A stretch of 61,577 nt of DNA from an uncultured Bacilli bacterium (GTDB lineage Bacteria; Bacillota_I; Bacilli_A; RF39; UBA660): positions 1 to 61,577 of the forward strand of contig CANPVU010000004.1 in NCBI GenBank assembly GCA_947581765.1, read 5' to 3'. Positions 16,742-48,136 of the stretch are shown here, piece by piece (within the stretch, counting starts at the first letter, position 1; the number at the start of each line of letters is the position of its first letter). A program made the translations under genes and the position numbers. The notes beneath the pieces were generated by a model. The model searched no databases. It was not told the origin of the DNA and saw only the letters and a list, made by a program, of their open reading frames with translations.

Positions 16742-17351
16742 TCCGTTCTCTAAACATAGAGATTAATATTATGGCATATAATATAGTTAATTTTACGTCA
16801 TAGGTCAAGCAGATTTTCTCTAGTTTCCACAATTCGTTACCAAATTGCGGTTCCCCTTTAAGGAAACCAATACAACATCACTGTTTGTATGGCTTGATTA
16901 CCACTTAGTACGCACTTTAATCCCATATTAAATAACATTCTAGGAGATTTCCTCACCAGTTCATCTATTACTAGTACTCTTTTGCAATAATTGTTTCAAA
17001 TCAATAAACCATTAATAAACTTAGCTACTGTATTATTAATACTCAATTATCCCCAATAATCACTCAAGACAAGCTACACTACCCGCAACTTTCATCACAT
17101 GGTAGGTTTAATCCTAAATCGTATCTGGTCCATCAGTATGGAACGTATAGGCCAAACACAAAAATAGGTCTCCATGAATGCTGGGTCATTTGCACATGCC
17201 ATTGTGGATGCCCAACACTCTACCTTCCAGCATTCACCCTAAACTGGGCGTAAAAAGCAAACACCAGAAGTTTCACAGTTATGCTCTTATGCGGTATTTT
17301 AACCCCGCCCTCATAATAGATGGCTCTGACTAGAATAATGCGCCATCAATA
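16710..17351 (-). ncRNA. ole: OLE RNA (ornate, large, extremophilic RNA)
   Basis: ~640 nt without ORFs, markedly more G+C than its flanks, many long-range pairings (e.g. GAAUGCUGG/CCAGCAUUC, GAUGGC/GCCAUC, CCGCAAUU/AAUUGUGG), own promoter and terminator, and an oapA-like gene directly downstream. Confidence 0.82.
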
Positions 17352-17357
17352 TTCAGT

Positions 17358-17386
17358 ATTTTATCAAATTTAACAATTAATGTCAA
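17358..17386 (-). promoter_or_regulatory. Sigma-A promoter of the OLE RNA
   Basis: Minus strand TTGACA (17386..17381), 17-nt spacer, TAAAAT (17363..17358). Confidence 0.8.
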
Positions 17387-27876: not shown

Positions 27877-30800
27877 TTATCTTTCTAAATCTTCATCATT
27901 GGTTTCTTCAACACTTCTAGTGTTTTCTTGTTTATCTAAATCAAGTTCACTATCAATTCGTGCTTTTTCTTTTTGTAGTTCTCTAATTCTATCATTTTGA
28001 GTAAATGGTTTATCAAGTTCTTCCTTAATATCAATGAGTTGCTTTTCATTATAAGCAATTTGTTCTTTTGTAGTATTTATTTTATTACCAAAACTTTTTA
28101 AAATATTTTCTAATTTATAAATATTACCTATCTCATCTAAATTACTTATTTCAACTTTATACTTTCCTACACCTTTTACATAGACAACTGGTTTATAACA
28201 TAATTCATCTTTTGTTCCTACAATATCAAAACCACTAATTTCTCCTAGTTTTATTTCTTCATTAGTTTTTAATAAAGATAAACTTTGATAAAACTTTGTA
28301 CTTGCATCTTTTCTTGAATCAAATAATTGATCTCTAATAGTAATTTGAAAATTATCAGCTGATAAATCTTTTACTTTTAAAATATCAGTTTCAAGATTAC
28401 TTAAATATTGAGTTTGATATTTTAATTGTCTAGGTAAATCACGATTATATTTTGTTTCTAATTCAATATGTGATTTATCATATCTACTTTTAGATAAATA
28501 TAATTGTTTTAGTTCATTTTCAACTTTAAACTTATCTAATATTAATGGATTACCACTTGCAAGTGCTTTTACTTCTGCATAAGTTAATGTATCTCTATCT
28601 AAATCTTCGGCAGTTCTTCCACCACCATTACTATTAACCATAATTTGATTTATGAAAGTTGATTTAGTTTGAATTAATTGATATGAATATGCATCAAAAC
28701 TACCCTCGGTTACATATCTATATATCTCAACTTCTTCATTTTGATTACCTTGCCTTAAAATTCTACCTTCTCTTTGTTCAATATCAGATGGTCGCCATGG
28801 ACAATCGAGATGATGTAATGCAATTAATTTATCTTGAACATTCATTCCTGCTCCCATCTTTGATGTTGATCCTATTAAAATTCTTTTTGTACCATTTCTC
28901 ATATCTTCAAATAATTTTAATTTTTGTGGATTAGTTTTAGCATTATGAATAAATTCTATTTCTGCTTCTGGAACACCTTTTTCCATTAGTTTAGTTTTAA
29001 TATCATCATATATATTAAATGTCCCATCAGTTTTAGGTGTAGATAAATCACAAAAGACAAGTTGTGTTAACTTGTCTTCTCTGTTTTCCAACCATATTCT
29101 ATAAATGTTTTCTACTGCCATATTTATTTTTGAATTAGGTAAGTCTGGCATAGTTGGATCTATCATTCTTAAATCTAATGCTGCTTTTCTACCATCATTA
29201 GTTACAAGTAACATATTATCCTCTCGTGGATTACAACCATTTCTAATATGCTCACTTCTTTCAGATAACTTTTCAATATATTCTCCAAGTTGTTCACTTT
29301 TAGGTGCAACTATTGTTTTATAATCTCCACCTTTTAATTTTGGCACTGGTAAGTCTAACATCTTCGATGTTTTTATATCAGCAACTTCTTTGAATAAAGT
29401 CATTAACTCTGGAATATTAAAGAATTGTGCAAATCGTGCTTTCGTTCTAAAACCACTACCATCAGGTGCAATTTCAAAACTATTTACTATTTCTCCAAAA
29501 GTTGATGCCCATTCATCAAAATGTTCTAATCCCATTTCTCTTAATCTATCAAGTTGTAGATATTTTTGCATAGCAAATAATTCTCCCATTGAATTAGAGA
29601 TAGGAGTTCCTGTTGCAAATACTGCACCTTTTCCACCATTATTTTCAAGAATATAACTTATCTTCATAAATAAGTCAGTTGCTTTTTTACTTTCACTATT
29701 ATTTATACCTGCAACATTTCTTATTTTTGAATACATTGGTAAATTCTTAAACATATGTGCTTCATCAACTATTAGTTCATCAACACCAAGTTCTTCAAAT
29801 GTTACTACATCATCTTTTGGCCTATCTAATAATGTTTTTAATTTGGTATCCATACTCGTTTTAATTTGTTCAAGTTTTTTAACGCTTAAACTATCACCAG
29901 ATTCTTCTTTAATTCTTTCAATAGCATTTACAACTTCTTCTATTTCTTTTTCTATATGTTTTTGTTCATATTCTTTACTCATAGGAATTAATCCAAAACT
30001 TGAATGTGCAATTAAAACTGCATCATATTCTCCTGTTGCTATTTTTCCCATAAGTTTTTTTCTTCTAGTTTTTTCAAAATCTTTTTGAGTTGCTACAAGT
30101 ATATTTGCCGTTGGATATAATTTTAAGATTTCATTTGCCCATTGCCCTAACAAATGATTAGGGACAACAAACATTGGTTTACTAACAATACCTAGTCTTT
30201 TTAATTCCATTGCACTAGCAATACACTCATAAGTTTTCCCTGCACCTACTGCATGAGCAAGTAAAGTATTACCACCATATAAAACACGAGCAACTGCATT
30301 TTTTTGATGTTCACGAAGTTCTATATTTGGATTCATTCCATCGAAAGTAAGATGACTACCATCAAACTCTCTTTCTTTCATACAATTAAATTGTTCATTA
30401 TAAAGTTTTTTTAGTCTATTTCTTCTTTCTTCATCTTTCCAAATCCATTCTTTAAACTCTTGTTTTATTAATTCTTGTTTTTCTCTAGCATTTGCAGTTT
30501 CTACAGGATTTACTACTCTTCGATCATCATCTAATTTATCATATATAGTTACACTTTGAAGATTTAAAGCATTTTTTATTAAAGATAAAGCATCTGCTCT
30601 ATCAGTTCCCCAAACACTTGTATTCTTAACTCCATAACCATATAAGCCACTTGCTTGAAATAACCATGTATTTACTTCTTTTGCATATTTTATCTTTAAT
30701 CTACTTTTATTCCAACTTTGAATATCTAATAATTCACAACAAAATTGATGATATACATCTTCTGGTACCCAAGTAGATCCTAACTTAACACTTATCTCAT

Positions 30801-33800
30801 CATATTCAAGTGGTGTAGGTTGTACTCTTTCAAGTGCCTCAATGTTTTTATCAAACTTATTATCTTCATTTATTGATTTAGCATAATTAAGTTTATGTTT
30901 AACATTACCACTTAAATATTCACTTGCGATTACCCAACCTTTATTAAAGTCATTTAATTTTTCAGGATCTTGATAGATTAAATTATCAAGCTCTTCTATA
31001 ATTTCATCATCAGTTTTTGGATATAATGTTTTCATATATTCAAAATCTACACAACCACGATTATTAAGTGAATACTTTAATGCATCTTCTGCAGTTTCAG
31101 CACTTGTTATTACTTTACTTTTTCTTATTGTTCTTTTAGTAAAGACATCTCCCTTTTCATATTTAGGTTTATCATCTTCTATGTCTTCATCTTCTTTACT
31201 AACTTTATTTTCAATAGATGTAAGTAAATAATAATCTGGATCGCTTTCAAATGCTCTTGCATTTACACTATCATTAATATAACCATATCTTTTATAAAAC
31301 TCATCATATTCTTTACTTAACTTTTCTTGTGCTAGTGATAATTCTTCATCACTACCATCACGAAGTTGTATATCAAATACATCTCTTAAAGCATTTTTCA
31401 CTTTACAAAGACCAATAATTCTTTTTGCTACCATACCCTCTTGAATAGAATATGGAACTAAACTAGAGAATTGTCTTTGATATATTATGTCTTTTCCATC
31501 TTTATTAATAATGGTAAAAGCATTATTCTTAATACTATCATCTGCGTCTAATACATCTAAATTAGTATCATTGTTTTCTATAAAACTACTTTGTTCATAT
31601 ATGTTACTTGGTAATTGTCTTAATGCTCGTTGCATTATTTCATTTATATCTTTATCTTCAAATGGAATACAAGTTGCCATATCAAAATGTGTTGTAGTTT
31701 CCATTTTACCAAGCATCATATTTGGATTATCAATATAATAATTATTGATAGTTATCCCATCTTCATTTTCACTTGTATAAATCCATTTTTCTTCACTTAT
31801 ATCTTGTTTTAATTCATCTCTCTTTTTTAAGAAAATAATATCAGATGTCACTCTTGCATTAGCATTATTTGTAAATGTATTATTTGGTAATCTAATTGCA
31901 CCTAAAAACTCTGCTCGTTTTGCAATATACTCTCTTACTCTTGTATCTTTCTTATCAAGTGTTCCATCAGTAGTTATAAAAGCAATTATTCCACCATCTC
32001 TAACTTTATCAAGTGTCTTTTGGAAGAAATAATCATGTATTAAAAACTTATCTTTATATCTTTTATCATAGACAGTATTACTTCCAAAAGGAACATTACC
32101 AACTGCAACATCAAATAACTCATCTGCTACTTTTGAATTTTCATAACCAGTTATTTCTATTTTTGCATTAGGATAAAGTTTTTTAGCAATTCTTCCACTT
32201 ATACCATCTAACTCAACACCATATAATTTAGATTTATTAAATTCTTCTGGTAATCTACCGAAGAAATTTCCAATAGCACAACTTGGCTCTAAAATATTCC
32301 CTTTTTCAAATCCAAATTGTTTAAGTGCATTATATATTCCATCTATTACCATATTTGGAGTATAAAAAGATGATAAGGTTGAATGTGCAACTGCTTTATA
32401 TTCTTCATCACTTAAAAGTAATTTTAATCTTTCTCTTTCACTTTTCCAATTATCTTTTCTTTCATCAAAAGCATCAGCAATTCCACCCCAACCTACATAA
32501 CGAGATAAAATGTCTTGTTCTTCTTTTGTTGCGTTTCTATCTTCATTTTCAAGTTGTTTCAAAATTTCAATAGCTTTTATATTATCTTCAAATCTTGATT
32601 TTGCTCCAAAACTTCTTTCAATTTTACTATCGTCAATATGATAATTAAATGTTGGATACTCATCCTTGACTTCAGTTTCAATATTTCTTATTTCATAAGT
32701 AATATCAGATACTTCATTAACTATTTGTTCTAATTCTTGACTATCAATTTCACCTTGATTTATAAGTTTCGTACTAGGTATATCCATATCAAATTGCTTT
32801 TCGTCAAAATTATTCCAATAAATATGAATCATATTTGGAGTAAATCTTATTGAAAAATCCTTATCTTTATATAAGGATTGAATAAAAGCGTTATTTAATA
32901 TTAATTCATTTAATTTTATTTCTTCAGTTTTGTCAGTATTAAAAAATGTAAAACTATTTTCACTATCAGCATAATCATCAATCAAAGAACTTTTTAAAAT
33001 TATAGATAAATTTCTTTTTTTACTAGATATATGTTCCCATCGTTGTAACTCAACATTGTATATTTCAAAAGTATTCATATATCTTGTATCAAAGGAATTA
33101 AATATACCGCATATTTTATTAGCTAATAAATTTTCTCTTGATTCAAACAAAGATAATTGTTCTACATCTTCATCTATTATATTTTTTAGCTCATTACTTT
33201 CTAATTTTTCCTTATGCTTTTTTTCTTTTTCAACAGCATAAATACGCTCTAAGATTTCATAATTTACTCCAGTGTTAATTTCAATAGATTCTAGACTTTT
33301 TTTTAAATCATTATCTATAATATCCTCTTCAATTATAGAAATAATTTCTTCTTTAATTTTATCTAAAACTATAACATATTTATTGATTTCCTTATATAAA
33401 CTACAGCTTTCTTTATTAATAACTTGCATACATTTCATGATATTATCCATTGACAATTTTTTTAATTGTGAATATGAACTTTCTGTATCTATTGGAATAT
33501 CTTTACCTATTTTAGTTAAAATAATAGAGGATATAGATTCACTCACAAATTTTTTTTCGTCTAAACTCAAATTTGAATAATTATTATTTAATAAATTATC
33601 TATATTCACTTTTAATGCAATAGTAAATTTTTCAGAAATTGATATATCATTTCTATTAAGTTCTAATTTATTCTTGAAAGAATAAATATTAGCTATATCT
33701 TCATCATACTTTGCATTATATTTCCAAATAATAAATGATTTTCCATAAGTTTGAGCTATATCAAAAACGTATACTTTATAATCATTTTTTAAAATTGGGA

Positions 33801-34041
33801 TTCCATGACTCCCTCTTTTTATTCTTCTATTCACAGATTCTTTATTCCAATCATCAAAGGTTGCAAATATTTTGCCTCTAGGATTATATGAATAAATATT
33901 AAGTAAGTTATCAATAGAATGATAACCTAAATTTTCAGACCAAAATCTAATAAAATCATGCCAACCTTTATCATAATTAAGTATATCTTTAATGGTTTCA
34001 TCACGATTATTGTAAAAAAAATTAACAAATTTTTTATTCAA
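27877..34041 (-). CDS. Giant ArdC-like / DNA methylase-like / SNF2-type helicase fusion of the kind carried by ICEs
   Basis: N-terminal ArdC-like ssDNA-binding pattern; methylase region ([26 protein letters not shown]); helicase motifs [38 protein letters not shown]-like [20 protein letters not shown]. Confidence 0.9.
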
Positions 34042-34091: not shown

Positions 34092-36083
34092 TTATTTTAA
34101 ATAAATCTCTATTTTTGAATTTCTGTTTTTTCTATTTATCTTTTCTTTGTTTGAAATAATTGAAAAATTAAAATTCATGTGTTCAGATAAAGTTGTTAAT
34201 TGTAGAATATCTACATTTGACATGATTGAAGATAAGTATAAATCAACACGATTTACATTGTTATAATTTACATATTGCACTTCATAATCAACATTTATAA
34301 ATATTTTTAAAACTTCATCTATTATTTCATCAAGTTTTCTCTTAATATCATTATTTATTGAATCTAATTCAAATTTTTCAGATTGCACTTTTGATTGTAT
34401 ATCATTATTATTATTCAACTGTATATCTTCAACAGTATAATAAGTATCAACAAGTCTTTGTAAAGGTCTTTTAGTTCTTTCTATTTCTCCAGACCTATAA
34501 CAACTAAATTTTTTATAAATAATAGTATCTCTTAATATTGGATATCCTTTTGTTGGAAATATAATTATCTTATAATGTAATTGTTTTATTTCATCAGCTG
34601 TCATAAGACTTCTACTAATCAATGATGTATTTTTACTACCATTATTATTAATAAAACTCATTGAGTAATTTACTGAAGATGTTAAAACACCATGCGCTCC
34701 TAATCTTTTACTTATTTCATCAGCTGTACTTTGTGTATTTGTTTTTAAATATGCTAACCCACAGTTATCTTGAATAATTTGACTAACTTCTTTACCATAT
34801 AAATTATCCAATTGAGCAAAACTTTGTAAAAAGAAATTAAACCACATACCCCTGCTTCTTGCTACACTAACCATTGTAGTAATATCTGATAATGGTGGTG
34901 TATTAGCAAACTCATCTAACATAAATACTAAATCATAAGGAAGTCTTTTATTTTCTTGCTCATTACATAATAAAACCAAAGTTTTATAAATTAATGAAAC
35001 AATTATAGAAATTAATGAATAGTAGATTTTTGATTCATCTGGAATGCAACAATATAATACGGTAGGTTTCTTACCCAAAACATCAAAATCAAAATCCGAA
35101 TTAGATGTAATATTTTCTACATTGACATCATCATATAAAGTCATTCTTTCATTGAATGTTGATGTTATAGATCTATATGTTGTATCTGATATATTTAATA
35201 TTGGTAATAATTTGTCTTTGCTTTTCATCTCATAAGTTTTAGACTCCATATATTTTTTTAATTTTTTGTTATTTGTTTCTGTCATAGAACTATTTTGAAA
35301 CTTTTTTACAGATGTCAAAGTAATTTGATTTCTATTGATTTTACCATCAGCATATTCTTCCAAAAATAAAAAAATAATGCCATACAATAAATCGGCACTA
35401 CTATTATTCCAAAACTTCTCACGAGCAGTTGTATCATCCATTATCATTTTAGATATATCATTAACCAATTGATTTGCTTCTGCAAAATGAATTATTGATT
35501 TATTTTTATACTCCATTTTTTTATCTTCGTTTATTTCATTTTCACTTAATTTTTTAAAATTATTATATAACTCATATTCCTTTATTACTGGTTCAAGTAA
35601 ATTTATATGATGACTATATTCTGGGTGTCTAAAGTCAAGAGTTATTACATCATAACCATTTTCTTTAAACAATTTACTTGTTGTCGAAAAAATCTCTCCT
35701 TTAGGATCGGTAATAAAAACACTTTTTTTAGTTTTTGCAGTTGCAATAAAAGAGCAACTTGGAATAACAGCAGTAGCACTTTTTCCACTACCTGTAGAAC
35801 CTAAATAAATCCAATGAGGTGTTTCCATATCAAACCATACCTTTTTATTATTTTTACTATAATATATCGGAAAACCACTTTCATCTATATTATCTATATA
35901 TTCTAAATGGAAATTCTTTTTTATTTCAGTTAATGTGGCCCATCTTGCAGATCCATGTTCTTTATTGTCCTTTATTTTTTCTTTTGAAATCAAAGGTTCT
36001 ACAAATAGCAATATAATAATAATTACAAAAATTAATAAACTTACAACTACTAATTGCATTTTATCTTTCCACTTCTTTATCAA
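34092..36083 (-). CDS. VirD4/TraG-type IV coupling protein
   Basis: IYLGSTGSGKSATAVIPS Walker A; LDEFANTPPLSDITTMVSVARSRGMWFNFFLQSFAQLDNLYG. Confidence 0.93.
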   Translation of the reverse strand: MIKKWKDKMQLVVVSLLIFVIIIILLFVEPLISKEKIKDNKEHGSARWATLTEIKKNFHLEYIDNIDESGFPIYYSKNNKKVWFDMETPHWIYLGSTGSGKSATAVIPSCSFIATAKTKKSVFITDPKGEIFSTTSKLFKENGYDVITLDFRHPEYSHHINLLEPVIKEYELYNNFKKLSENEINEDKKMEYKNKSIIHFAEANQLVNDISKMIMDDTTAREKFWNNSSADLLYGIIFLFLEEYADGKINRNQITLTSVKKFQNSSMTETNNKKLKKYMESKTYEMKSKDKLLPILNISDTTYRSITSTFNERMTLYDDVNVENITSNSDFDFDVLGKKPTVLYCCIPDESKIYYSLISIIVSLIYKTLVLLCNEQENKRLPYDLVFMLDEFANTPPLSDITTMVSVARSRGMWFNFFLQSFAQLDNLYGKEVSQIIQDNCGLAYLKTNTQSTADEISKRLGAHGVLTSSVNYSMSFINNNGSKNTSLISRSLMTADEIKQLHYKIIIFPTKGYPILRDTIIYKKFSCYRSGEIERTKRPLQRLVDTYYTVEDIQLNNNNDIQSKVQSEKFELDSINNDIKRKLDEIIDEVLKIFINVDYEVQYVNYNNVNRVDLYLSSIMSNVDILQLTTLSEHMNFNFSIISNKEKINRKNRNSKIEIYLK

Positions 36084-37399: not shown

Positions 37400-39181
37400 T
37401 TACCTTATTAAATCAATAATTCTCTTTTTCATTATTTTATTAACTGGTAATTTTATAAGAATATAAATATATACTAAATAAATAAAGATAAAGAGTAACA
37501 AAATTATCAATGGTGGAAATAGGTTTATATTAAATATAAATTTTATAAGCAAATTAATAAAAAATAATAAAACACAACTAAATAACAAACTTTTTATATA
37601 TCTAAAAAAATATTCTTTTTTAATATTTTTAGTTATTCTCTTTTTATCAATATTGAATAGTTGCATATAACCTATTTCTTTTTTTCTAAAATGAAGTTGC
37701 AACATTATTTCATTCGACAAAAACAACAAGACAATAATACTAGAAAATATAATAATCAAAATCAATATATTAAATAAAAAATTTATACTACTTTGAGAAG
37801 ATTCTATTTTATTATCCCAATACAGATAAACTCCTAATTTTTTTAATTTTGTTACATCTGACTTATTCCCATATAAATTTTTAGTTGAAGCAAAAAGCAC
37901 TTTACTATTTTTTATTTCTCCAAACGTTTTTAAATAATCATAAGGAACCAACATGATATAATCTTTATTACTCAAAGAATAATAAGGATTTGAATCATTA
38001 GCCAAATTAATTATTTTTTCATTTGAAGATATTATTCCTGATATAACAAATTTTTTATTATCAAAAGTTATACTCATCCCTATAGTTTTTTCTGCATCCA
38101 CGTTTGGAAAAAAATTGTTAACTAAATTTAAATTAACCAAAATTTCATTGTTTTTTACTGGGAACTTTCCATATATTAAATTTTCTTTATTTTTAAAATA
38201 ACTATCACAATAATCTGGAAGAATATAACTTTTTATACCATTAGAAAATTCATAATAATAATTATCATATAATTTTAAATCTATAATATCACTTACTTGT
38301 TCATACGTATTTTTTTCAACTTCAAAAGAATTTAATGGATATTTGTCTTTCAGTAAATTTATATACTCATTTTTAAAATTAAATCTAAAACCTAATATAA
38401 ACAAAAATAATGTTAATAATATAGTCGATACCAGAAAACTCTTTTTTGAAGAACTTTTTTTTAATTTGTTAATAACATATTTTTTATCAATCTCTTTAAA
38501 ATTAATTTCACATTTTTTTTCTTTGAAATTTGGCTCACAATTTTTTTGAAACTTTTTTGAATTATTTTTAGAAACTACTTTGTCAACATTTCCATAATCC
38601 AAATAAATTATTTGATCTGCTATTTCATCAAAATAATTATCATGTGTCGAAATAATAATTATTTTATTAAAGTTTTTAATTTTATTAAATTCTTTAACTA
38701 TAATTTTAGCATTATTTTCGTCTAATGAAGCTGTTGGCTCATCAGCTAAAATTAAATCATTATCAACCAATAACATTCTGCACAAAGCTACTCGTTGTCT
38801 TTCTCCACCTGATAGTTCATTTGGATACTTATCAAGAAAACTTAATACTCCAAATAATTCAGCATAATAATTTATTTTTTCTTTATCACAACAAACCATC
38901 ATTAAATTTTCAATAACTGTCATATTAGAAAATAAATTACTAGCTTGTGTCATATATCCAACAAAATGATTTTTGCGAAAATCTTGAATAACATTACTAT
39001 CAATTATATATTCGCCACTATAATCTAAAACTATACCAGATAATATATTAAGTAAAGTTGTTTTTCCACTACCAGAAACACCTTTTATAACATATATGTT
39101 TCCAGGCATAAACGAATAACTTATTTTATTTAAAATTGTTTTATCACCATATTTCTTTGTAATTTTTTCTAATTTTATCAT
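37400..39181 (-). CDS. MacB-like (type VII) ABC protein: N-terminal ATPase fused to FtsX-type permease
   Basis: GVSGSGKTTLLNILSG, LSGGERQRVALCRMLL, DEPTASLDENN; TM at ~245 and three C-terminal TMs around a large extracytoplasmic region. Confidence 0.88.
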   Translation of the reverse strand: MIKLEKITKKYGDKTILNKISYSFMPGNIYVIKGVSGSGKTTLLNILSGIVLDYSGEYIIDSNVIQDFRKNHFVGYMTQASNLFSNMTVIENLMMVCCDKEKINYYAELFGVLSFLDKYPNELSGGERQRVALCRMLLVDNDLILADEPTASLDENNAKIIVKEFNKIKNFNKIIIISTHDNYFDEIADQIIYLDYGNVDKVVSKNNSKKFQKNCEPNFKEKKCEINFKEIDKKYVINKLKKSSSKKSFLVSTILLTLFLFILGFRFNFKNEYINLLKDKYPLNSFEVEKNTYEQVSDIIDLKLYDNYYYEFSNGIKSYILPDYCDSYFKNKENLIYGKFPVKNNEILVNLNLVNNFFPNVDAEKTIGMSITFDNKKFVISGIISSNEKIINLANDSNPYYSLSNKDYIMLVPYDYLKTFGEIKNSKVLFASTKNLYGNKSDVTKLKKLGVYLYWDNKIESSQSSINFLFNILILIIIFSSIIVLLFLSNEIMLQLHFRKKEIGYMQLFNIDKKRITKNIKKEYFFRYIKSLLFSCVLLFFINLLIKFIFNINLFPPLIILLLFIFIYLVYIYILIKLPVNKIMKKRIIDLIR

Positions 39182-41076
39182 ATTAAATCCCTAGACTCCT
39201 GTAAAATTTCATACCACCCAATTTTTTTTATTCTTTTAGAAATAAATATCATGGATATAAAACAAATAAATACTATAAAAATAACAAAAAGTATTAGCAA
39301 TAAAATATTAAAATCAAATAATCTAAATTTAAAAATATTTAAAATATCATTAAGATAATTTAATAAAATTGCAATTATAAATGCAAATATTATTGATTTT
39401 ATTAATAGCTTACATATATTTATTAAGTTAGCAAGAATATAATTTTTTGCAACAAAGTCTGATTTATATCTATAATAATTATAAACACAATAATTATATT
39501 TATAATATTCTATTCTTGATATTAAAGATTGAAAATAAAATAAGAAAGATATTATAATGCATATCAATGCTACCGGATACATTATTATTGATAAAGCACT
39601 AAAACTATTAAATAAATTATAGAATGATTTACTATATCCACTGATAAATTCATTACTATTATTATAATATTTATTAAATACACTATTCATACTTTTAAAA
39701 TTTTTAAAATATAAAATATATTTTGTGGGTTCTGAAAAATAGTTTTCCGTGAATTTAGAATTTATAAAAAACTTTTCATTAATTGTATCTGTCTCTATAC
39801 CATATGGTTTAAAATACATTAATTCATCTTCTGAAAAATCATCAAATATTCCAGCAATTCTAAATTCCTCTTTGCCATTGTACAATTTCAAAGATATTTT
39901 CTTTCCAACTAAACTTTTTATATCTTTGTTATTTGCTAAAGATAATGCATATTTTTTACCAATTATTATATCATTTTTATCTTCAAAATATTGTCCGTAA
40001 ATAATTTTTTTTGAATATTTAAAATATTCAGGATTATATGGAATAGTAACTACATTAAACTCATAAAAAGTATCATCATTTTTCATACTAAAACCATCAT
40101 TAAAATTTGTTATCGGAATATTTAAAGCATAATCAATCACTATTTCTTTCACATTAGGATCACTTAGTAATTCTTGATATTCATTAAAATATTTATCACT
40201 ATATGTTATCTTAAATTGATTTATTTTATATCTTTTCTCAATATTAGATAACAATTTGTTCATTGGAGAATTGCATAAAAATAAAATTAAAATTGATAAA
40301 ACAAATACAATACTAAGTATAAAGTTTGATTTTTTTTCAAATTTAGAATATTTATATTGTTCAAGCATAAATTTTAAAATGGATTTCCTACTAGTTGTAT
40401 CATCAAAAGATATTTCAGCGCCATCAGTAGTGCTATTTTTAGAAACTACATATTCACTTGCATTTTCTAAATTAATAATTTCATCACAATTATTTTTTAA
40501 TTCAGAATCATGTGAACTCATTATTACAATAATATTCTCTTTAATTTTATTTAATAATTTAATCACTTTTAATTTATTTTCTCTATCTAATGAGGCTGTT
40601 GGTTCATCAAGTAATAAGACTTTTTTATTCATTAATACTGCTTGTATAATAGCTATTCTTTGTTTTTCTCCTCCAGATAATTCATTAGGGTATTTATTTC
40701 GTGTATCATATAAATTAAACTTTTTTAAATATTCAATAATTTTTTTATCATCGGTGCAACAAAGTTCTAAATTTTTTAATATTGTTAAATAATCTATAAA
40801 AAATGTATTTTGTGAAATATATCCTATTTTTTCCATCATTAATTCATTATCTACTTTTTTTTGAAATTTTATATTTGATGAAAAAGAGATTTCACCATTA
40901 TCAAAATTTTCAATACCACAGATAATATTTAACAAAGTAGTTTTACCACTTCCACTTCTCCCACATAAAAAATATATTTTTCCTGGATTAAAACAGTAAG
41001 AAAAATTTTCAAATATAACTTGTTTTCCGTAGTGCTTAGATATTTTATCACAATTAATTTTCATTATTTGCCACAC
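39178..41076 (-). CDS. MacB-like (type VII) ABC protein, probable partner of the previous one
   Basis: GRSGSGKTTLLNIICG, LSGGEKQRIAIIQAVL, DEPTASLDREN; same domain order. Likely start at the internal MKINCDKI. Confidence 0.87.
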   Translation of the reverse strand: MWQIMKINCDKISKHYGKQVIFENFSYCFNPGKIYFLCGRSGSGKTTLLNIICGIENFDNGEISFSSNIKFQKKVDNELMMEKIGYISQNTFFIDYLTILKNLELCCTDDKKIIEYLKKFNLYDTRNKYPNELSGGEKQRIAIIQAVLMNKKVLLLDEPTASLDRENKLKVIKLLNKIKENIIVIMSSHDSELKNNCDEIINLENASEYVVSKNSTTDGAEISFDDTTSRKSILKFMLEQYKYSKFEKKSNFILSIVFVLSILILFLCNSPMNKLLSNIEKRYKINQFKITYSDKYFNEYQELLSDPNVKEIVIDYALNIPITNFNDGFSMKNDDTFYEFNVVTIPYNPEYFKYSKKIIYGQYFEDKNDIIIGKKYALSLANNKDIKSLVGKKISLKLYNGKEEFRIAGIFDDFSEDELMYFKPYGIETDTINEKFFINSKFTENYFSEPTKYILYFKNFKSMNSVFNKYYNNSNEFISGYSKSFYNLFNSFSALSIIMYPVALICIIISFLFYFQSLISRIEYYKYNYCVYNYYRYKSDFVAKNYILANLINICKLLIKSIIFAFIIAILLNYLNDILNIFKFRLFDFNILLLILFVIFIVFICFISMIFISKRIKKIGWYEILQESRDLI

Positions 41077-41878
41077 TACCCAATAATTCTTTTAATTTAG
41101 TTGTATCAAATGTTTTTCCATCAAAAACATCAATATCAAAAATTTGCTTTTCAACAATTTCTTTTTCTAATAATAATAAATTATTGTAATCTTCTATTTG
41201 ATCTTCAGTTGCCTCATTATCATTAACCAAAGTTGATAAGAATTTTCCATCCTTATTTATATAATCAATTTTAGCAAATTTAATATTTCCATTATATATC
41301 ATATATCCAACTCTAAATACACCATTTCCGCTTTCAATATCTAAAGATGATGCAAAAGATAAATAATCGTATTTTCCATGAGATACTTCTTCTTCATTTA
41401 AACTTGATTTATATAATTCAATAACTAAATTTTCATCGATAGTTTTCAATTCTAATTCTTTCAATTTGGATTCAAAATTTTCTTCATTAAATGCCCCAGA
41501 ATCTAAAAAATCTGATAATTTAAGATATTCTTGTCTAGTTTTTTCTCCATTTAATAATGTATATACACCTGGTTCCATGGTATTAATTGTCTCACCAGTT
41601 TTGCCATCAATGATTGGAATATAAAATTTATCATTAGTGTCTTTTTTCAATAAATCTATCCTATTAAATTCGTATCCATAAATTTTAGTAAAATTCCCAC
41701 TATCATCTTTTTGATAAAAAGTACAAAAGTAATTAATCCAATTATCATCTTCTTTATACGAACATTTTTCTAAGGAATGTACCTCGTTATCTTCTTCAAT
41801 TTTTTTATCATTTTTACAACCTGTTAAAACAATTAAAACAAATCCACATAACAATAAACTTAATAATATTTTTTTCAT
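41054..41878 (-). CDS. Lipoprotein, accessory to the ABC pair
   Basis: MKKILLSLLLCGFVLIVLTGC lipobox with RBS AAGGAGTGAG; start moved from track 41926 to 41878; overlaps the ABC gene. Confidence 0.8.
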   Translation of the reverse strand: MKKILLSLLLCGFVLIVLTGCKNDKKIEEDNEVHSLEKCSYKEDDNWINYFCTFYQKDDSGNFTKIYGYEFNRIDLLKKDTNDKFYIPIIDGKTGETINTMEPGVYTLLNGEKTRQEYLKLSDFLDSGAFNEENFESKLKELELKTIDENLVIELYKSSLNEEEVSHGKYDYLSFASSLDIESGNGVFRVGYMIYNGNIKFAKIDYINKDGKFLSTLVNDNEATEDQIEDYNNLLLLEKEIVEKQIFDIDVFDGKTFDTTKLKELLGSVANNEN

Positions 41879-42201
41879 ATACTCACTCCTTATAATATAA
41901 TGGTAGTGTAAAAAATTCTGCAACATCTACCTAATTTTTCTATATTTAACTTGTATATTTTACAAATTAAATTTACAATACTTATGTATCTTTTATATAA
42001 TTATATCAATTTTGATTTTATTTTTAAATACTAATTTATTGTTAACATAAAAAAAATAAATTTATCAATAATAATAGTATTCATTTTAATAATAATCAAG
42101 ACCATTATTTTTATTAATAATAAAAAAAATAATACTTATACAATTTCATTAGTAATTAACTTTTTAATATTTTTTCATAATTATCCATTTAAACTTTTTT
42201 C

Positions 42202-42239: not shown

Positions 42240-42758
42240 CTATTTTATACCCATATAATAATCAAAGAAATGATAAACATACGTTGAATCAGCATCACCA
42301 GAACAACTACTAATCATGAATTTCATATATAATTCAGCTTCATTATCGCCTGATGATTCTATATCACCTGATATTTTTGTTGTTACAGCAATATCTTTTA
42401 CCTCTCTATTTTTTATTTCAGCTTCATAAACTTTGACTAAATCATCTCCGCCAAATAAATCGTCTTCCATCAAATGCCCTGTCATAGTTCGTGTACAAGT
42501 CTCATTAAAAGTTCCATTAGAAAGAAATTTAGACAGATTTAGAAAATATACAAAAGTATCACTTCCCTGAGCTGTTGATTTTGATGATGTTACTGAGCGT
42601 GGATACTCTACAGTAAATTTACCCAGTCTGATATTTGGACCGCTTATAACTTCAGTTCTTTCTTCTGCATAAACATTACCGACTAAAGTAAACATTAAAG
42701 CTAAAATACCAATCATAGAAAAAAACCTTCTTTTCATATATAAATCACCTCCTTTCAA
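42240..42758 (-). CDS. Secreted protein with Sec signal peptide (cargo)
   Basis: MKRRFFSMIGILALMFTLVGNVYAEERTE signal; two Cys in the mature part; RBS upstream of the internal Met. Confidence 0.7.
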   Translation of the reverse strand: MKGGDLYMKRRFFSMIGILALMFTLVGNVYAEERTEVISGPNIRLGKFTVEYPRSVTSSKSTAQGSDTFVYFLNLSKFLSNGTFNETCTRTMTGHLMEDDLFGGDDLVKVYEAEIKNREVKDIAVTTKISGDIESSGDNEAELYMKFMISSCSGDADSTYVYHFFDYYMGIK

Positions 42759-42781
42759 TGGATTTATAAAACTAAATTAAT

Positions 42782-43594
42782 TTAATTGATTTTAAGTATA
42801 TCCCCCACCTTAATGATGTATGGAAATTGAATATTATTCAATTTGGCAATATCTTTCCAATTAACATTAAACTTTTTCCCAATTTTTATTAAATAATCTC
42901 CTTTTTGAACTACGTATGTAATCTTATTTTTTAAAAGTTCATCCACTTTATCTTGAATAACTTTATAATCGTATCCTGCCATAGTCAATCGATTTTTCAA
43001 AGTAAGATCATTTCCCCATAATCCATCAATTACTTCATTAGCTACCTCTTCAATAGACTGCTTTTTATCATTAACTTTTATCCAGTTATAAACTTTCTTT
43101 TTAACTTTAACTTGATCACTTAAATAGAGTGCCCTTGTTATATCATATTGGTTATATATTAGCCACGCATAACTCTTAACTTTAGGTTGATATTTTCCCT
43201 TATACCAACCATTACCTTTAAATTTACCTTTACCTGCTGCAATGTGAATATGAGTTCCTGTTGAAATTCCTTTTGTTCCCGGATGATAATATATTTCTCC
43301 TTGTTTAATAATTTGTCCAACACTCAAATTAGAAATATCATTATCATGTAGTGTCATAATAGTCATAAAATCTTTAGTTCCATCTGCATACTCTACTTTA
43401 TCGCTACTTTCTAACCATACAGCATTACAATTTTTATATATTCGTTTTATTACACCAGTAAAAGGTGCTTTTAAATATGTTAATTTAGATATATCGATAG
43501 CTAAGTCACCATTGTGAGAATATGTATCATTCATTTTTTGACTAATATATAATGTATCAACATTAAGTATTGCTTTTTCCATTTTTATTATCAC
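42782..43594 (-). CDS. Endolysin-like protein: M23-like peptidase fold, CW_7 repeat and LysM
   Basis: GTHIHIAAGKG; SIEEVANEVIDGLWGNDLTLKNRLTMAGYDYKVIQDKVDELL (CW_7-like); YVVQKGDYLIKIGKKFNVNWKDIAKLNNI (LysM). Likely start 43582. Confidence 0.8.
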   Translation of the reverse strand: MIIKMEKAILNVDTLYISQKMNDTYSHNGDLAIDISKLTYLKAPFTGVIKRIYKNCNAVWLESSDKVEYADGTKDFMTIMTLHDNDISNLSVGQIIKQGEIYYHPGTKGISTGTHIHIAAGKGKFKGNGWYKGKYQPKVKSYAWLIYNQYDITRALYLSDQVKVKKKVYNWIKVNDKKQSIEEVANEVIDGLWGNDLTLKNRLTMAGYDYKVIQDKVDELLKNKITYVVQKGDYLIKIGKKFNVNWKDIAKLNNIQFPYIIKVGDILKIN

Positions 43595-43769
43595 CTATTC
43601 CTACTTTTTGTTCTATATCTGATAATCTCTCATTCATTAATGACAAAGTTGTTAACATTTCTTTCATAGTTGTATTTTGAAAATATATTAAATAAATAAC
43701 TACACCAACTGCTACTCCCTGATTTGCAACAAGGCTAATAATTCCTTCCATTTTTTCTCCTCCTCTCAT
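43563..43769 (-). CDS. BhlA/UviB-like holin-type protein
   Basis: MEGIISLVANQGVAVGVVIYLIYFQNTTMKEMLTTLSLMNERLSDIEQK: one TM then coiled region, adjacent to endolysin. Probable start at the second Met. Confidence 0.72.
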   Translation of the reverse strand: MRGGEKMEGIISLVANQGVAVGVVIYLIYFQNTTMKEMLTTLSLMNERLSDIEQKVGIGDNKNGKSNT

Positions 43770-43850
43770 AAAAATTTATATAATTAATCACACAAAATAT
43801 AAATATTTTATAATCACATCAATCTTTAAATTAATTTAAATTATCATCCT

Positions 43851-43887
43851 TTCACTATATTCCTCACTTATAACCTTTTTTTGAAGT
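43851..43887 (-). promoter_or_regulatory. Copy A of a 37-nt motif upstream of the holin/endolysin unit
   Basis: ACTTCAAAAAAAGGTTATAAGTGAGGAATATAGTGAA; 31/37 identical and ungapped with copy B (47445..47481). Confidence 0.65.
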
Positions 43888-43896
43888 ATAAAAATA

Positions 43897-43944
43897 AAAA
43901 AACTAGAAAAAATTTTTCCAGTTTAAAATTTTTCTAGTTTAATT
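43897..43944. terminator. Long hairpin downstream of the 233-aa gene
   Basis: AAACTAGAAAAATTTT...AAAATTTTTCTAGTTT-type inverted repeat with T/A runs on both sides (approximate coordinates). Confidence 0.6.
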
Positions 43945-44022
43945 TTTATAAAATAAGAATTTTTAATTGAAATAACAAATCTAAATTTTGAAATTAAAAT
44001 GAAATAATATAACTTAATTAAA

Positions 44023-44724
44023 CTATTTACGATTTTTATATTTCGATATTATATTACTACAAATAATCAGTAATATATTGAATACTATCAAACTTATAAA
44101 AATTTTTTTATATTTTAATTTTAAAGTATTTAATACATTTAATGAGTATTTATTACTTTTATTTATAAAATAATTTTGAAAATCATTATAAATTTCATCT
44201 TCAGATATTAATTTATAAGGAAATTTAGAACGAAAAGATATTTCAATTTTATTTGAAGATTTAAAAAATAAAAGACATGAATCGTTAGTATCATTATAGA
44301 TTATCAAAGGTTCTTTATCTTCTAAAGCTTTTTCTACATCTAAAACTCCTAATTCTTCTAAAAAATTTTGTAAATTAATTTCTGATTTATATTCGCCATA
44401 AATTGATATATCCCCTACGTTTCTTTTGTGACGATCATTTCGCGCTATTGAAAGAAACGCAATTTCATCGAACACTACATAATTATCTTTTGTTAAATCT
44501 ACACCATTAACCATTTTAAAAAATGGATTTTTAATGTCTTTGATATTTATCTTTTCGCTATAATATGAAGAAACAATTATTCTTTTACGAATATAACCAA
44601 TTTCTTTTTTAAATGGATATATCCATTTTAAATATAGTAAAACAAATAATAATAAATTGACTCCAAAAAATATAATAACATTCTTTAATATTTTCATCAC
44701 AAATTGGCCTCCAAAATTTATCAA
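44023..44724 (-). CDS. Uncharacterised two-TM membrane protein
   Basis: 233-aa ORF with N- and C-terminal TM helices and an extracytoplasmic middle; directly after the DUF1906 gene. Confidence 0.6.
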   Translation of the reverse strand: MINFGGQFVMKILKNVIIFFGVNLLLFVLLYLKWIYPFKKEIGYIRKRIIVSSYYSEKINIKDIKNPFFKMVNGVDLTKDNYVVFDEIAFLSIARNDRHKRNVGDISIYGEYKSEINLQNFLEELGVLDVEKALEDKEPLIIYNDTNDSCLLFFKSSNKIEISFRSKFPYKLISEDEIYNDFQNYFINKSNKYSLNVLNTLKLKYKKIFISLIVFNILLIICSNIISKYKNRK

Positions 44725-44821
44725 CTTGATTTATTTCAACTTATAAATAGTATATTTGATTAAAACATTATAATTGCATAATTCTTTAATATTATAGCAT
44801 AATATATTTTAAAGTAAATAA

Positions 44822-47347
44822 TTATCTTCCAGCATTTATTTCATCATATAAATGGTTTTTAAAACTATCAATAGCTGTATCTATATATTTTTGTTCTGCT
44901 TTTGTTATTGTTCCTCTTAATTCTTTTATTGGACTTTCATTTGAATTTATTAATTCACATAATTCATTAAAATGCTTCACTGTCATACATTGTATAAATA
45001 TATTAGCTTTAGCTTTATATGCACATATACCTGTACTAAGTGGTAAAATATAATAATTTAAAAATGCTTCGGGAAGAGTGAAATTTCGTGTATAAATCAT
45101 ATCAAATAAGTTATATGCATCAATATCATCAATATAATCTTTCGAATCGAAAAATTTGTCACCTGGGCGACATATATGTTCTTTTGCCCATTTTTCATAA
45201 TCATATTCTCCATCCTCTTCAAAAGCTATTTTTATTGCTGTTGCAAACGAGATAGTATCTCCTCCCCATCCAGCAAAAGAGTCTACAATTTGATCAAACT
45301 TATTTAATTCAACATTTCCAATCTTATATAACAGTGCATTAAGTACTGCAGCTAGATGTGGAAAATCATGATTAACAATATCTTCATAACTGTCATCCTC
45401 AAAGTCAAAAGTTAAATTATATAATTTTTCATCTACAAGCTCACAATACTTAGTATCAATCGTACCTGCAACAACATCCCATCTAATATTATCTATGAAT
45501 TCCCCTACGTCATCTGCTCTAAAAATTGATGTATCTCCATATCTTTCTTTTCTAATATATTGTAAAACCAACATATTACTTTTCTCTTTATCACCATCTG
45601 TATATTGCAATGCTAAATTATACATATCTAGCAAACTATAGTAAACTTTTCCAATATCGGTTAAATATAAATCTCCTCCTAAACCTAAATCTTTACCTGA
45701 CGTTGCATCTTTATCAATTTCTATTTTTCCATCGCCACTTCCAACTTTAATTGTAGTAAATTGATCAAAAGCCCAATTATCTGGTATGCAAAAGCCAAGA
45801 TTTCCACTAAATCCTGTTGACATGTCACTAACAAAACTATACTTGGCATAACCGGCATTACTAACTTTAGAACAAACATTTCTTGTACCATAAATACTTA
45901 CAGGATACTTATTATTTAATGAATCTTTCATAATAGAACTTAATATTTTAAAGTAAGGTATAATGTAATCGGTAATTTCAGATTCTTGTGGATCACAATC
46001 TACAGCAAAGTAAATACTCGTTCCACTTGGCAGTCCTAATTTAGATGCATGATCAAAGGCATTTAACAAATCATTAGTAGCTCTTTGCACTGTAAAATAT
46101 GAAACAGAATTTGCACTTTGTTGATATATTGGGAATATCCTTAAACCAGCCTCTACTGCTATTTTTAATTCATCAATTGTTAATGCTTTGCTTTCTCCAC
46201 TTGCAATATATCCAGATAAATATCTTCCAACTATGCGATAACCATTATCGTATAAAGTTTTTGCTTTTTCTTTGGTTAAAATAGTAGCACAATCACACGC
46301 AGAAGCTGGTCTTTCTGTGTCACCACAACTTATCAATAATGAAAGCCACGTTGTATAATCTATCTCACCAGTAACAGGTATAACATACTTTGTTTGAAAT
46401 TGACTAATAGTATTTTCTTTTAATGTTGAAGAAATAGTACCATCTCCAAAGCCATTGAAATATAATAACATGTTTGCTAATATTTTAAATTTTTCAATTT
46501 TTTCACTAGAATATGAACTTCCATTATAACTAGTTCCCTTTGAAGTTCCTTCAACTGAAAGAGTTGGCAAACAACTTTTTGTCGATGGTCCACAATTTCC
46601 ATTTGCAACAGACGTAGACATTCCTTCTTCTGCCTGTATTGCATAAATTAAAGCTTTATTTGTTCTTCTTCCATATACTCCATCACATGGACACAAACCT
46701 ATATAATCTTCATAATTTTTATTTAAATATCTTTGCATTTCAATAATATTTTTAGTTCTTGTTGAATTATCATAAGAGTAGAAGTAATCCATAGACATTA
46801 ATGCTTTCATAACATTTACCGTTACATAAGATGTTGTATCTTCCACACCAGCATCTTCTTTTAAATTTCTAATAGCATTACCTGTTCCCGAATAAAAGTT
46901 ACCTGTTGGTTTATTGGTACCGATACTATATCCTTTGCATAATAATGCTCCTTGAACAATTCCAACTATTCTTCTATATTTTATTAATTCTATGACTTTA
47001 TTTTTATTTTCTTCACTCATATCATCTGTATTAAGTGCTTGAAGTTCTTCTAATGATAAAAATTCTAAAGGATCAACTCTATTATCAGGATCTGTTTCTA
47101 CCAATGGTGTAACTGATATATATTCTTTAAATGAATTTTCTGTACTAGGTCCAAAATTATCAACTATTGCACCAACATTTAGTGTAATTTGTAAAGCATG
47201 TACTAATGCATATATTGTAGTCCAACCTGTTTTTCCAGTTACAGTAATTTCTTCATATCCTGGTTCTCCCTTAAAATTTTGATTTACCCATTCTTGAACA
47301 TTTACTATATATGGGTCCATATAATCATCTCCTTCTAATTGTTCCAA
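44822..47347 (-). CDS. Large multidomain protein: peptidoglycan-binding-like repeats, DUF1906 (Rv2525c-like glycoside-hydrolase-like) domain and C-terminal helical region; no signal peptide
   Basis: PG-binding-like KNIIEMQRYLNKNYEDYIGLCPCDGVYGRRTNKALIYAIQAEEG; DUF1906-like SACDCATILTKEKAKTLYDNGYRIVGRYLSG...IYFAVDCDPQESEI. Likely start at MDPYIVNV. Confidence 0.8.
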   Translation of the reverse strand: MEQLEGDDYMDPYIVNVQEWVNQNFKGEPGYEEITVTGKTGWTTIYALVHALQITLNVGAIVDNFGPSTENSFKEYISVTPLVETDPDNRVDPLEFLSLEELQALNTDDMSEENKNKVIELIKYRRIVGIVQGALLCKGYSIGTNKPTGNFYSGTGNAIRNLKEDAGVEDTTSYVTVNVMKALMSMDYFYSYDNSTRTKNIIEMQRYLNKNYEDYIGLCPCDGVYGRRTNKALIYAIQAEEGMSTSVANGNCGPSTKSCLPTLSVEGTSKGTSYNGSSYSSEKIEKFKILANMLLYFNGFGDGTISSTLKENTISQFQTKYVIPVTGEIDYTTWLSLLISCGDTERPASACDCATILTKEKAKTLYDNGYRIVGRYLSGYIASGESKALTIDELKIAVEAGLRIFPIYQQSANSVSYFTVQRATNDLLNAFDHASKLGLPSGTSIYFAVDCDPQESEITDYIIPYFKILSSIMKDSLNNKYPVSIYGTRNVCSKVSNAGYAKYSFVSDMSTGFSGNLGFCIPDNWAFDQFTTIKVGSGDGKIEIDKDATSGKDLGLGGDLYLTDIGKVYYSLLDMYNLALQYTDGDKEKSNMLVLQYIRKERYGDTSIFRADDVGEFIDNIRWDVVAGTIDTKYCELVDEKLYNLTFDFEDDSYEDIVNHDFPHLAAVLNALLYKIGNVELNKFDQIVDSFAGWGGDTISFATAIKIAFEEDGEYDYEKWAKEHICRPGDKFFDSKDYIDDIDAYNLFDMIYTRNFTLPEAFLNYYILPLSTGICAYKAKANIFIQCMTVKHFNELCELINSNESPIKELRGTITKAEQKYIDTAIDSFKNHLYDEINAGR

Positions 47348-47444
47348 TTTATTACTTTTTTTAGAATAAGAATAATATACTAATTACCTGCAGGATTTAA
47401 AAATAAAAGTATTAAATTGAAATATTGCGAAGAGTTTTAAACTC

Positions 47445-47481
47445 TTCACAATATTCCTCATTTATCAAACTTTTTTGAAGT
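47445..47481 (-). promoter_or_regulatory. Copy B of the 37-nt motif, upstream of the 841-aa gene
   Basis: ACTTCAAAAAAGTTTGATAAATGAGGAATATTGTGAA, starting at the sigma-like gene stop codon. Confidence 0.65.
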
Positions 47482-47939
47482 TAATATTTTATATTTTTTA
47501 AAATTTTTTTTAGTCCACCATCTATACTATACTTTATTGCTCTTGGACTGCATCCTTCTTCAATCGAAATTTCTTTTAAAGTTTTGTTTTGAAAAAAATA
47601 CTTTTTTAATCTTCTTTTTTCTATTTCTGGTAATTTATCTATTTCATTTAAAATATTTTCATAAAAAATTTTATTTATTACCATTTCTTCTAATGAATTA
47701 TTAATTATTTTAACTTTTTTATATAACATTTCATCCGTTTGTTCTATATGTTCAGTATGTCTATCATATTCATTCATTATTTTTTTATCTTGTAATTCAA
47801 ATTGATTAAATGCATTATATAGCTCATCACTAATTTTTAATAATTGATTATTTCCTTTACTATCTGTAAAAGATATATGGTTATTATCAACTAATGTATA
47901 TGGATTATATTTATCCTTCCTCCTCTTTACTTTTATCAT
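47481..47939 (-). CDS. Sigma-70 region-4-type regulator of the ICE family
   Basis: IDKLPEIEKRRLKKYFFQNKTLKEISIEEGCSPRAIKYSIDGGLKKIL HTH; N-terminus RRKDKYNPYTLVDNN as recalled for ICE sigma-like proteins. Confidence 0.78.
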   Translation of the reverse strand: MIKVKRRKDKYNPYTLVDNNHISFTDSKGNNQLLKISDELYNAFNQFELQDKKIMNEYDRHTEHIEQTDEMLYKKVKIINNSLEEMVINKIFYENILNEIDKLPEIEKRRLKKYFFQNKTLKEISIEEGCSPRAIKYSIDGGLKKILKNIKY

Positions 47940-47945
47940 TTTTTA

Positions 47946-47982
47946 CCTCCAATCAAATAAATTCTTTTATTCGATTAGGAGG
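47946..47982 (-). promoter_or_regulatory. Shine-Dalgarno-sequestering hairpin upstream of the sigma-like gene
   Basis: CCTCC(T)AATCGAATAAA-AGAA-TTTATTTGATTGGAGG; the 3' arm contains the GGAGG Shine-Dalgarno. Confidence 0.75.
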
Positions 47983-48000
47983 CGCTCTAATAAAAAACAT
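47953..48000 (-). CDS. 15-aa leader peptide MFFIRAPPNRIKEFI
   Basis: ATG at 48000 with GGAG 8 nt upstream; stop TGA lies in the 3' arm of the hairpin. Confidence 0.6.
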   Translation of the reverse strand: MFFIRAPPNRIKEFI

Positions 48001-48006
48001 AAAATC

Positions 48007-48031
48007 AACTCCAAACAAAGTGTTTAGAGTT
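48007..48031 (-). promoter_or_regulatory. Second hairpin, sequestering the leader ORF Shine-Dalgarno
   Basis: AACTCTAAAC-ACTTT-GTTTGGAGTT; GGAG lies in the 3' arm. Confidence 0.6.
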
Positions 48032-48048
48032 TAGGCTATAATTTGGGT

Positions 48049-48093
48049 AAAAAAAATTACACTACCTGGTAAGCAAGTGCACTAGCTTGTAAT
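48049..48093 (-). terminator. Terminator/attenuator-like hairpin with U8 tract upstream of the leader
   Basis: ATTACAAGCTAGTGCACTTGCTTACCAGGTAGTGTAATTTTTTTT; contains near-palindrome AAGCTAGTGCACTTGCTT. Confidence 0.5.
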
Positions 48094-48100
48094 TCAACTC

Positions 48101-48127
48101 AAAAAAAAAAGACTTCAAAATGAAGTC
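48101..48127 (-). terminator. Intrinsic terminator after the 247-aa secreted protein gene
   Basis: GACTTCATTTTGAAGTCTTTTTTTTTT on the minus strand. Confidence 0.8.
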
Positions 48128-48136
48128 TAAAATAAT

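Follow-up and report, generated by a model that had tools for sequence, protein, structure and literature searches.

The locus examined here raises the question of how a gene for a sigma-like regulator, preceded by a very short reading frame and two hairpins, might be switched on. It lies in a 61,577-nucleotide stretch of DNA from an uncultured Bacilli bacterium, and this whole stretch is referred to as the window. Our favored reading, to which we assign a probability of roughly 0.78, is that the sigma-like regulator of a mobile element is under translational attenuation driven by ribosome arrest at an R-x-P-P (RxPP) motif in the leader peptide; both the arrest and any signal that induces it are inferred. 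The leader region contained the following features.

47953..48000, minus strand: leader ORF of 15 codons, MFFIRAPPNRIKEFI followed by TGA, with its ATG at 48000 and its stop at 47955..47953 (homologous short leaders were found elsewhere)
47977..47988, minus strand: Arg-Ala-Pro-Pro codons AGA GCG CCT CCT, the proposed arrest motif (sequence, homologues and the published permissive set, PMC12992588)
47945..47983, minus strand: hairpin sequestering the Shine-Dalgarno (SD) sequence, 17 pairs with one bulged U (-19.1 kcal/mol, z -6.1; covariation)
47946..47950, minus strand: Shine-Dalgarno sequence GGAGG of the regulator (sequence and predicted pairing)
48007..48031, minus strand: second hairpin, containing the leader's own GGAG at 48012..48009 (-11.5 kcal/mol, z -5.3, 0/200 shuffles; counterparts in homologues)
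48110..48128, minus strand: intrinsic terminator of the upstream gene, ahead of the leader (terminator scan and fold)
47421..47455, minus strand: strong inverted repeat 3' of the regulator, possibly a transcript end (-22.7 kcal/mol, z -9.0)

The CCTCC inside the Arg-Ala-Pro-Pro codons is the anti-SD for the regulator's GGAGG; the CCUCC:GGAGG pairing falls within the main hairpin, and the leader stop codon lies in its 3' arm, 13 nt ahead of the regulator ATG (47939). The fold of 47930..48060 reached -35.9 kcal/mol (z -6.3), and 0 of 200 shuffles were equally good. The initial annotation, which had proposed this folding as a check and whose prediction was thereby met, had described the 15-codon leader, both hairpins and the regulator, and all were found where it had placed them. 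Its stop codon in the 3' arm and its CCTCC:GGAGG pairing also held, with its 16-bp stem becoming 17 pairs and one bulged U; its claim that the second hairpin hides the leader's GGAG held in the window, and only short-leader homologues share that hairpin. The second hairpin was also terminator-like by score, and the hairpin ahead of the window leader was weak (z 0.2). An Rfam search of the leader region returned no family above the gathering score, and -10/-35 counts and a promoter scan upstream of the leader gave no clear signal. The inverted repeat at 47421..47455 has no proper T-run on the regulator's strand.

Stalling at the Pro-Pro of the leader had been suggested at the outset, and this was refined: the motif is not merely Pro-Pro but has the form of an RxPP arrest core, which the earlier reader had missed. 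The I-RAPP of the window leader corresponds to the core of established arrest peptides (RAPP in ApdP and ApdA; IRAGP in SecM). It sits 7 residues before the leader end, and only four residues precede the Arg.

The gene under this leader and three genes of the likely surrounding element were as follows.

47481..47939, minus strand: sigma-70 region-4-like regulator of 152 aa (Pfam, AlphaFold and fold matches)
25096..26706, same strand as the regulator: large serine recombinase
27877..34041, same strand as the regulator: 2054-aa SNF2/helicase protein
34092..36083, same strand as the regulator: conjugative coupling protein

The earlier description of the regulator as sigma-like held. Its C-terminal domain scored 23.7 bits against Pfam Sigma70_r4_2, just under the cut-off of 25.7, which a Ruminococcus bromii homologue (L072) passed with 33.5 bits. 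In the AlphaFold model (pLDDT 80 overall), the C-terminal half was helical and confidently predicted, and the best PDB matches were sigma factors (AlgU and region 4 of SigE), none of which reached E < 0.001 (E >= 0.012). The window likely carries a conjugative or mobilizable element, as the serine recombinase, the SNF2/helicase protein and the coupling protein lie on the regulator's strand, 11-22 kb from it; for the same reason the label of ICE given to it initially is plausible. Among 80 GTDB homologues, a serine recombinase lay about 2 kb downstream in 36 loci, a MazF/PemK toxin was a neighbor in 32, an XRE-type repressor lay upstream in 25, and a tyrosine integrase-like protein was present in 16. 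In adjoining integrases, these Sigma70_r4/Sigma70_r4_2 homologues resemble sigma-70 region-4-like mobile-element regulators. A scan of viral contigs with the window regulator protein found nothing.

Several other observations concern the element and its relatives. Directly 3' of the regulator (42240..47347, minus strand), this conjugative-type element contains what resembles a phage lysis module: an 841-aa endolysin-like protein (Rv2525c-type GH domain and PG_binding), a 68-aa small membrane protein, holin-like in appearance, and a LysM/CW_7 lysin. Two tandem ABC transporter genes at 37400..41076 (minus strand), encoding a fused permease and bacteriocin-export-like, adjoin a lipoprotein gene at 41054..41926. 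A full-length OLE RNA (Rfam RF01071, 377.8 bits) was found at 16755..17362 (minus strand). In L092, where a pemK RNA (Rfam RF02913) lies 3' of the regulator at 3283-3363, it can be set beside the MazF/PemK genes that are common neighbors in the family. In L166 (1500-3062, reverse strand), an RGPP leader and the first ~40 regulator residues run in frame into a conjugative coupling protein, at what is apparently a deletion junction.

Regulator homologues were taken from related genomes and from GTDB, where the hosts were uncultured Bacilli and Clostridia, Ruminococcus bromii, Oscillospiraceae and Lachnospiraceae. Among 92 distinct upstream regions, 89 carried an in-frame [RK][SGADP]PP that began 41-67 nt ahead of the regulator; each locus gave a single match, and the remaining frames of that 110-nt segment gave none. 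The three exceptions carried RSPS (L034), WSPP (L102) or belonged to a remote homologue (L048, 52 bits). In L102, a close relative of the RSPP loci L084 and L089, the Arg codon CGG has become Trp TGG; judged from its sequence alone, this WSPP may be a natural loss of the arrest core.

Residue composition was counted in the 89 homologues with at least 300 nt upstream. Position 1 of the motif was Arg in 84 and Lys in 5; position 2 was Ser in 59, Gly in 18, Ala in 6, Asp in 5 and Pro in 1; and Pro occupied position 3 in 89/89 and position 4 in 88/89. The preceding residue was most often Cys (41), Ile (22) or Asn (13), and the one before it was mostly basic or Asn/His. In RxPP arrest, the third-codon Pro is in the P site and the fourth-codon Pro in the A site, and mutagenesis of ApdA and ApdP found the Arg irreplaceable, with Ala and Gly fully permissive at position 2 and Ser, Asp and Pro partly so (PMC12992588, PMC10951233). 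The natural position-2 residues all fell within this published arrest-permissive set; Val and Glu, which are partly permissive in ApdP, were absent. Three points count against reading the motif as an arrest site: Ser, the commonest residue at position 2, is merely partly permissive in ApdA/ApdP, at 5 loci Lys replaces the Arg that is irreplaceable there, and Val and Glu are missing.

The leader is translated, as reading-frame statistics showed. In successive 5-codon bins upstream, the motif frame contained stops at 0/445, 1/445, 3/445, 1/445 and 4/445 codons, compared with ~0.06-0.19 stops per codon in the other two frames, and the median open run was 48 codons in the motif frame versus 5 and 1 in the others. 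On the regulator tree, the Arg codon class switched between AGR and CGN at least 21 times, the Ser codon class switched between AGY and TCN at least 11 times, and residue 2 changed at least 26 times, with all four Pro codons and all six Arg codons in use. Since the codon class of Arg and Ser switched while the residues were kept, it is the peptide that is conserved, not the RNA alone.

These results bear on two rival explanations, both of which we consider all but excluded. The first is an RNA-only element, either a protein-binding hairpin or an operator palindrome, in which RxPP would be a by-product of the anti-SD CCNCC; CCNCC is indeed required for pairing with GGAGG. Against it, only the motif frame is stop-free over ~40 upstream codons, the AGR/CGN and AGY/TCN switches preserve residues, and in most loci the SD stem does not include the codons for Arg and position 2. 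The second is an attenuator responding to starvation for Pro or Arg, for which the conserved Arg and Pro codons would speak. However, there is a single Arg codon and only two Pro codons, drawn from every synonymous codon available, a strict small residue separates Arg from Pro, and the main family's conserved neighbors include no biosynthetic gene. Counting against the arrest reading, in the N-terminal part of long leaders we found no amino-acid constraint (pN/pS 0.65 versus 0.62-0.70 in the other frames), and no common motif was found among the N-terminal parts of the leaders; this nonetheless fits the two-module picture in the literature, of a fixed C-terminal core and a free N-terminus.

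The stem was conserved too. A hairpin containing the regulator SD was predicted in 89/89 homologues (median z -4.5), with an SD pairing probability above 0.5 in 88/89. When 49 mixed leaders were aligned with MAFFT, RNAalifold did not predict a structure, because the stems occur in two registers, CCTCC-paired and second-Pro-paired, which were misaligned there. Once the leaders were split by register into alignments A3 and A4, covariation exceeded shuffled and slid controls in both: both sides changed at 13/18 pairs in one register (score 0.321 versus 0.141 shuffled) and at 8/17 pairs in the other. The initial annotation would have been refuted had leader or stem not been conserved in homologues; both were kept in about 90 of them, with compensatory changes in the stem and synonymous codon switches.

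A rule-based scan, which asked for RxPP, an SD-sequestering hairpin and an ORF of at least 60 aa, matched exactly once on both strands of the whole window, at the leader locus. On 1.4 Mb of scanned strand from the 80 GTDB loci, it gave 60 matches, all at the expected regulator position. Of these, 52 fit a regulator pattern, 4 more were visibly of the same family, and the remaining 4 were known regulator loci for which the scan had picked the wrong start or frame.

The position of the motif relative to the stem was also fixed. Every base pairing with the SD lay within 21 nt of the first base of the Arg codon in 89/89 loci, and in 83% of loci at least one lay within the Pro codons. A ribosome footprint is large enough to span the anti-SD when the ribosome is stalled at RxPP. 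A ribosome stalled there must therefore cover the anti-SD.

Translational coupling without arrest is the rival that this geometry addresses most directly. It holds that a ribosome passing through the leader or terminating in it opens the stem and that the regulator is reinitiated. In its favor, the window leader stops 13 nt short of the regulator ATG, and many leaders end near or overlap the regulator start. The distance from motif to start varied little (sd 4.8 nt), whereas the position of the leader stop was scattered (sd 80 nt, -43 to +489), and simple termination-reinitiation coupling is therefore disfavored. Coupling also needs no Arg, small residue or Pro-Pro, yet all were kept through synonymous switches. 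We consider this explanation unlikely, with the reservation that where the leader overlaps the regulator start (about 37% of loci), plain ribosome passage also opens the stem.

In our preferred reading, RxPP arrest, the ribosome translating the leader would stall at the motif and sit on the 5' arm. This would free GGAGG, as the Pro codons and the next ~10 nt form the SD-pairing 5' arm, and a second ribosome could then start the sigma-like regulator. If the leader is untranslated, or if the ribosome passes and leaves, the hairpin would re-form and the regulator would be off. Arrest on these leaders, release of the SD, activation of the regulator, a role in the life cycle of the element and the nature of the modulator are all inferred; candidate modulators are the elongation state, EF-P-type factors, transcription-translation coupling or a drug. 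The host has EF-P, and arrest at RAPP and RGPP resists EF-P (PMC12992588). RSPP, common here, is weaker than RAPP/RGPP and may be tunable. RAPP alone is not always sufficient, and the N-terminal context matters (PMC12992588, PMC10951233). A point against arrest in the window is that four residues precede the Arg, while ApdA and ApdP use residues ~6-12 positions upstream.

Two leader architectures were found. Short leaders, 7-9 residues long at the stall site, included MFFIRAPP of the window, MLHIRSPPIIF (L002/L003), MIYIRSPPL (L059) and the R. bromii type MI(Y/F)(R/K)N(R/K)SPP. Only these variants had a hairpin over the leader's own SD (the window, L002/L003 and the R. bromii type; weak in L059), so that initiation of the leader would be a second gate. 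Most homologues, and not the window, have a leader of 30-60 codons with an intrinsic-terminator-like hairpin inside it, present at dG <= -8 in 92% versus 8% of shuffles, with the T-run at a median of 31.5 nt before the Arg codon. This internal terminator would be the second gate in long leaders, read through only if a ribosome closely trails RNA polymerase. In E. coli, ribosomes close behind RNA polymerase prevent intrinsic terminator hairpins (PMC5021804, PMC4824070), and by analogy it is possible that a trailing ribosome suppresses the terminator here. The long-leader homologues share with pyrBI-type coupled attenuation in E. coli a leader ORF that reads through an intrinsic terminator; unlike in pyrBI, the terminator occurs together with an SD hairpin and an arrest motif, and these leaders are not known to have a link to pyrimidine.

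The initial annotation had likened the locus to the drug-inducible erm/cat leaders, in which, as a rival explanation here, a ribosome-targeting antibiotic would stall the leader and turn the mobile element on. In support, erm/cat leaders are likewise very short ORFs with an SD-sequestering stem that overlaps the stall site, a small residue precedes the P-site residue, and one homologous set adjoins tet(O)/tet(40). Against it, Gly or Asp at position 2 and the conserved Arg suit intrinsic RxPP arrest, the main family has no resistance gene among its conserved neighbors, and the N-terminal parts share no motif. In erm/cat, the stall needs a drug and the gene confers resistance, whereas here the motif is one of intrinsic arrest and the gene is a regulator. 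We consider this explanation very unlikely; the likeness held in part, the nearest relatives being of the SecM/ApdP type, with no drug inducer required.

The leader is closest to the RAPP-class arrest peptides ApdA, ApdP, ApcA and SecM, which are likewise encoded by small upstream ORFs, with R-x-P-P as a core close to the C-terminus and a variable N-terminus (PMC7897499; PMC10951233; PMC10987492; PMC12992588); as in SecM-secA, the initiation site of the downstream gene lies within a helix. The RAPP-class peptides control sec/yidC (or metal, or other) genes, whereas the target here is a mobile-element sigma-like regulator. They typically have signal sequences or transmembrane segments, in contrast to the four pre-Arg residues of the window leader and the lack of a conserved N-terminus in long leaders. 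Also unlike RAPP-class systems, the Pro codons double as the anti-SD, and the leader can be as short as 7-9 residues at the stall. We class the leader as a putative variant of nascent-peptide attenuation and not as a member of the Sec-monitoring family, as a localization signal and a sec target were checked for and both were absent.

The leader was not confined to one regulator family. From 18 leaders we built a covariance model, and its search of 147 genomes turned up the same leader ahead of a second sigma-like family (L152, ...GVGC-RSPP); R[SG]PP leaders were likewise present in the L152 homologues L175, L176, L053, L180 and L172-L174. A third sigma-like family is the leading member of a tandem gene pair next to tet(O)/tet(40); it occurs in plasmids of E. 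faecalis, in viral contigs and in a phage record from Streptococcus suis, and has MRC-RSPP or VRC-RSPP leaders together with the stem. In L139/L140, the first gene of the tandem carries the RSPP leader, and that of L139 scored 39.9 bits against a cut-off of 24.1 (Pfam Sigma70_r4/r4_2). The 36%-identical sigma genes by tet(O) in L139/L140 had been taken as leaderless, wrongly, as they are the downstream genes of the tandem. HTH_16 regulators had an RxPP leader in 0/21 loci. Several covariance-model matches that lacked RxPP (e.g., L155) were discarded as unrelated hairpins or chance matches. Separately, L167 (1240-2130) carries a long leader that ends in KC-RDPT and has a terminator and a hairpin; the 190-aa protein encoded after it is unrelated to the sigma-like families and has no Pfam match.

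A 2025 EMBO J survey (PMC12992588) reported that many Gram-positives, Bacillota among them, lack RAPP/RGPP uORFs. It drew on predicted proteomes and looked for RAPP/RGPP alone, and it could have missed these leaders because they are short and mostly RSPP. In the open-access literature, with subscription journals mostly outside the search, we found no report of this leader and none tying arrest peptides to mobile elements. A bolder reading, which could as readily prove wrong as right, is that mobile elements of Bacillota are generally switched on through RxPP arrest leaders, across at least three sigma-like families and even in tet(O) elements from Enterococcus and Streptococcus. Such an element would then sense the translation state of its host, or ribosome-polymerase coupling via the leader terminator, and use a programmed ribosome jam to time its activation.

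If the favored reading is true, a large group of putative arrest peptides is added, and ribosome arrest is tied to the control of mobile elements, some of them with tetracycline resistance. Very short leaders such as MFFIRAPP and MIYRNRSPP would make the minimal nascent chain for RxPP arrest testable, and Pro codons serving as both the putative arrest site and the anti-SD would represent a compact design. The leader and hairpin switch is conserved in dozens of gut bacteria; by inference, a ribosome jammed there is probably what turns these elements on.
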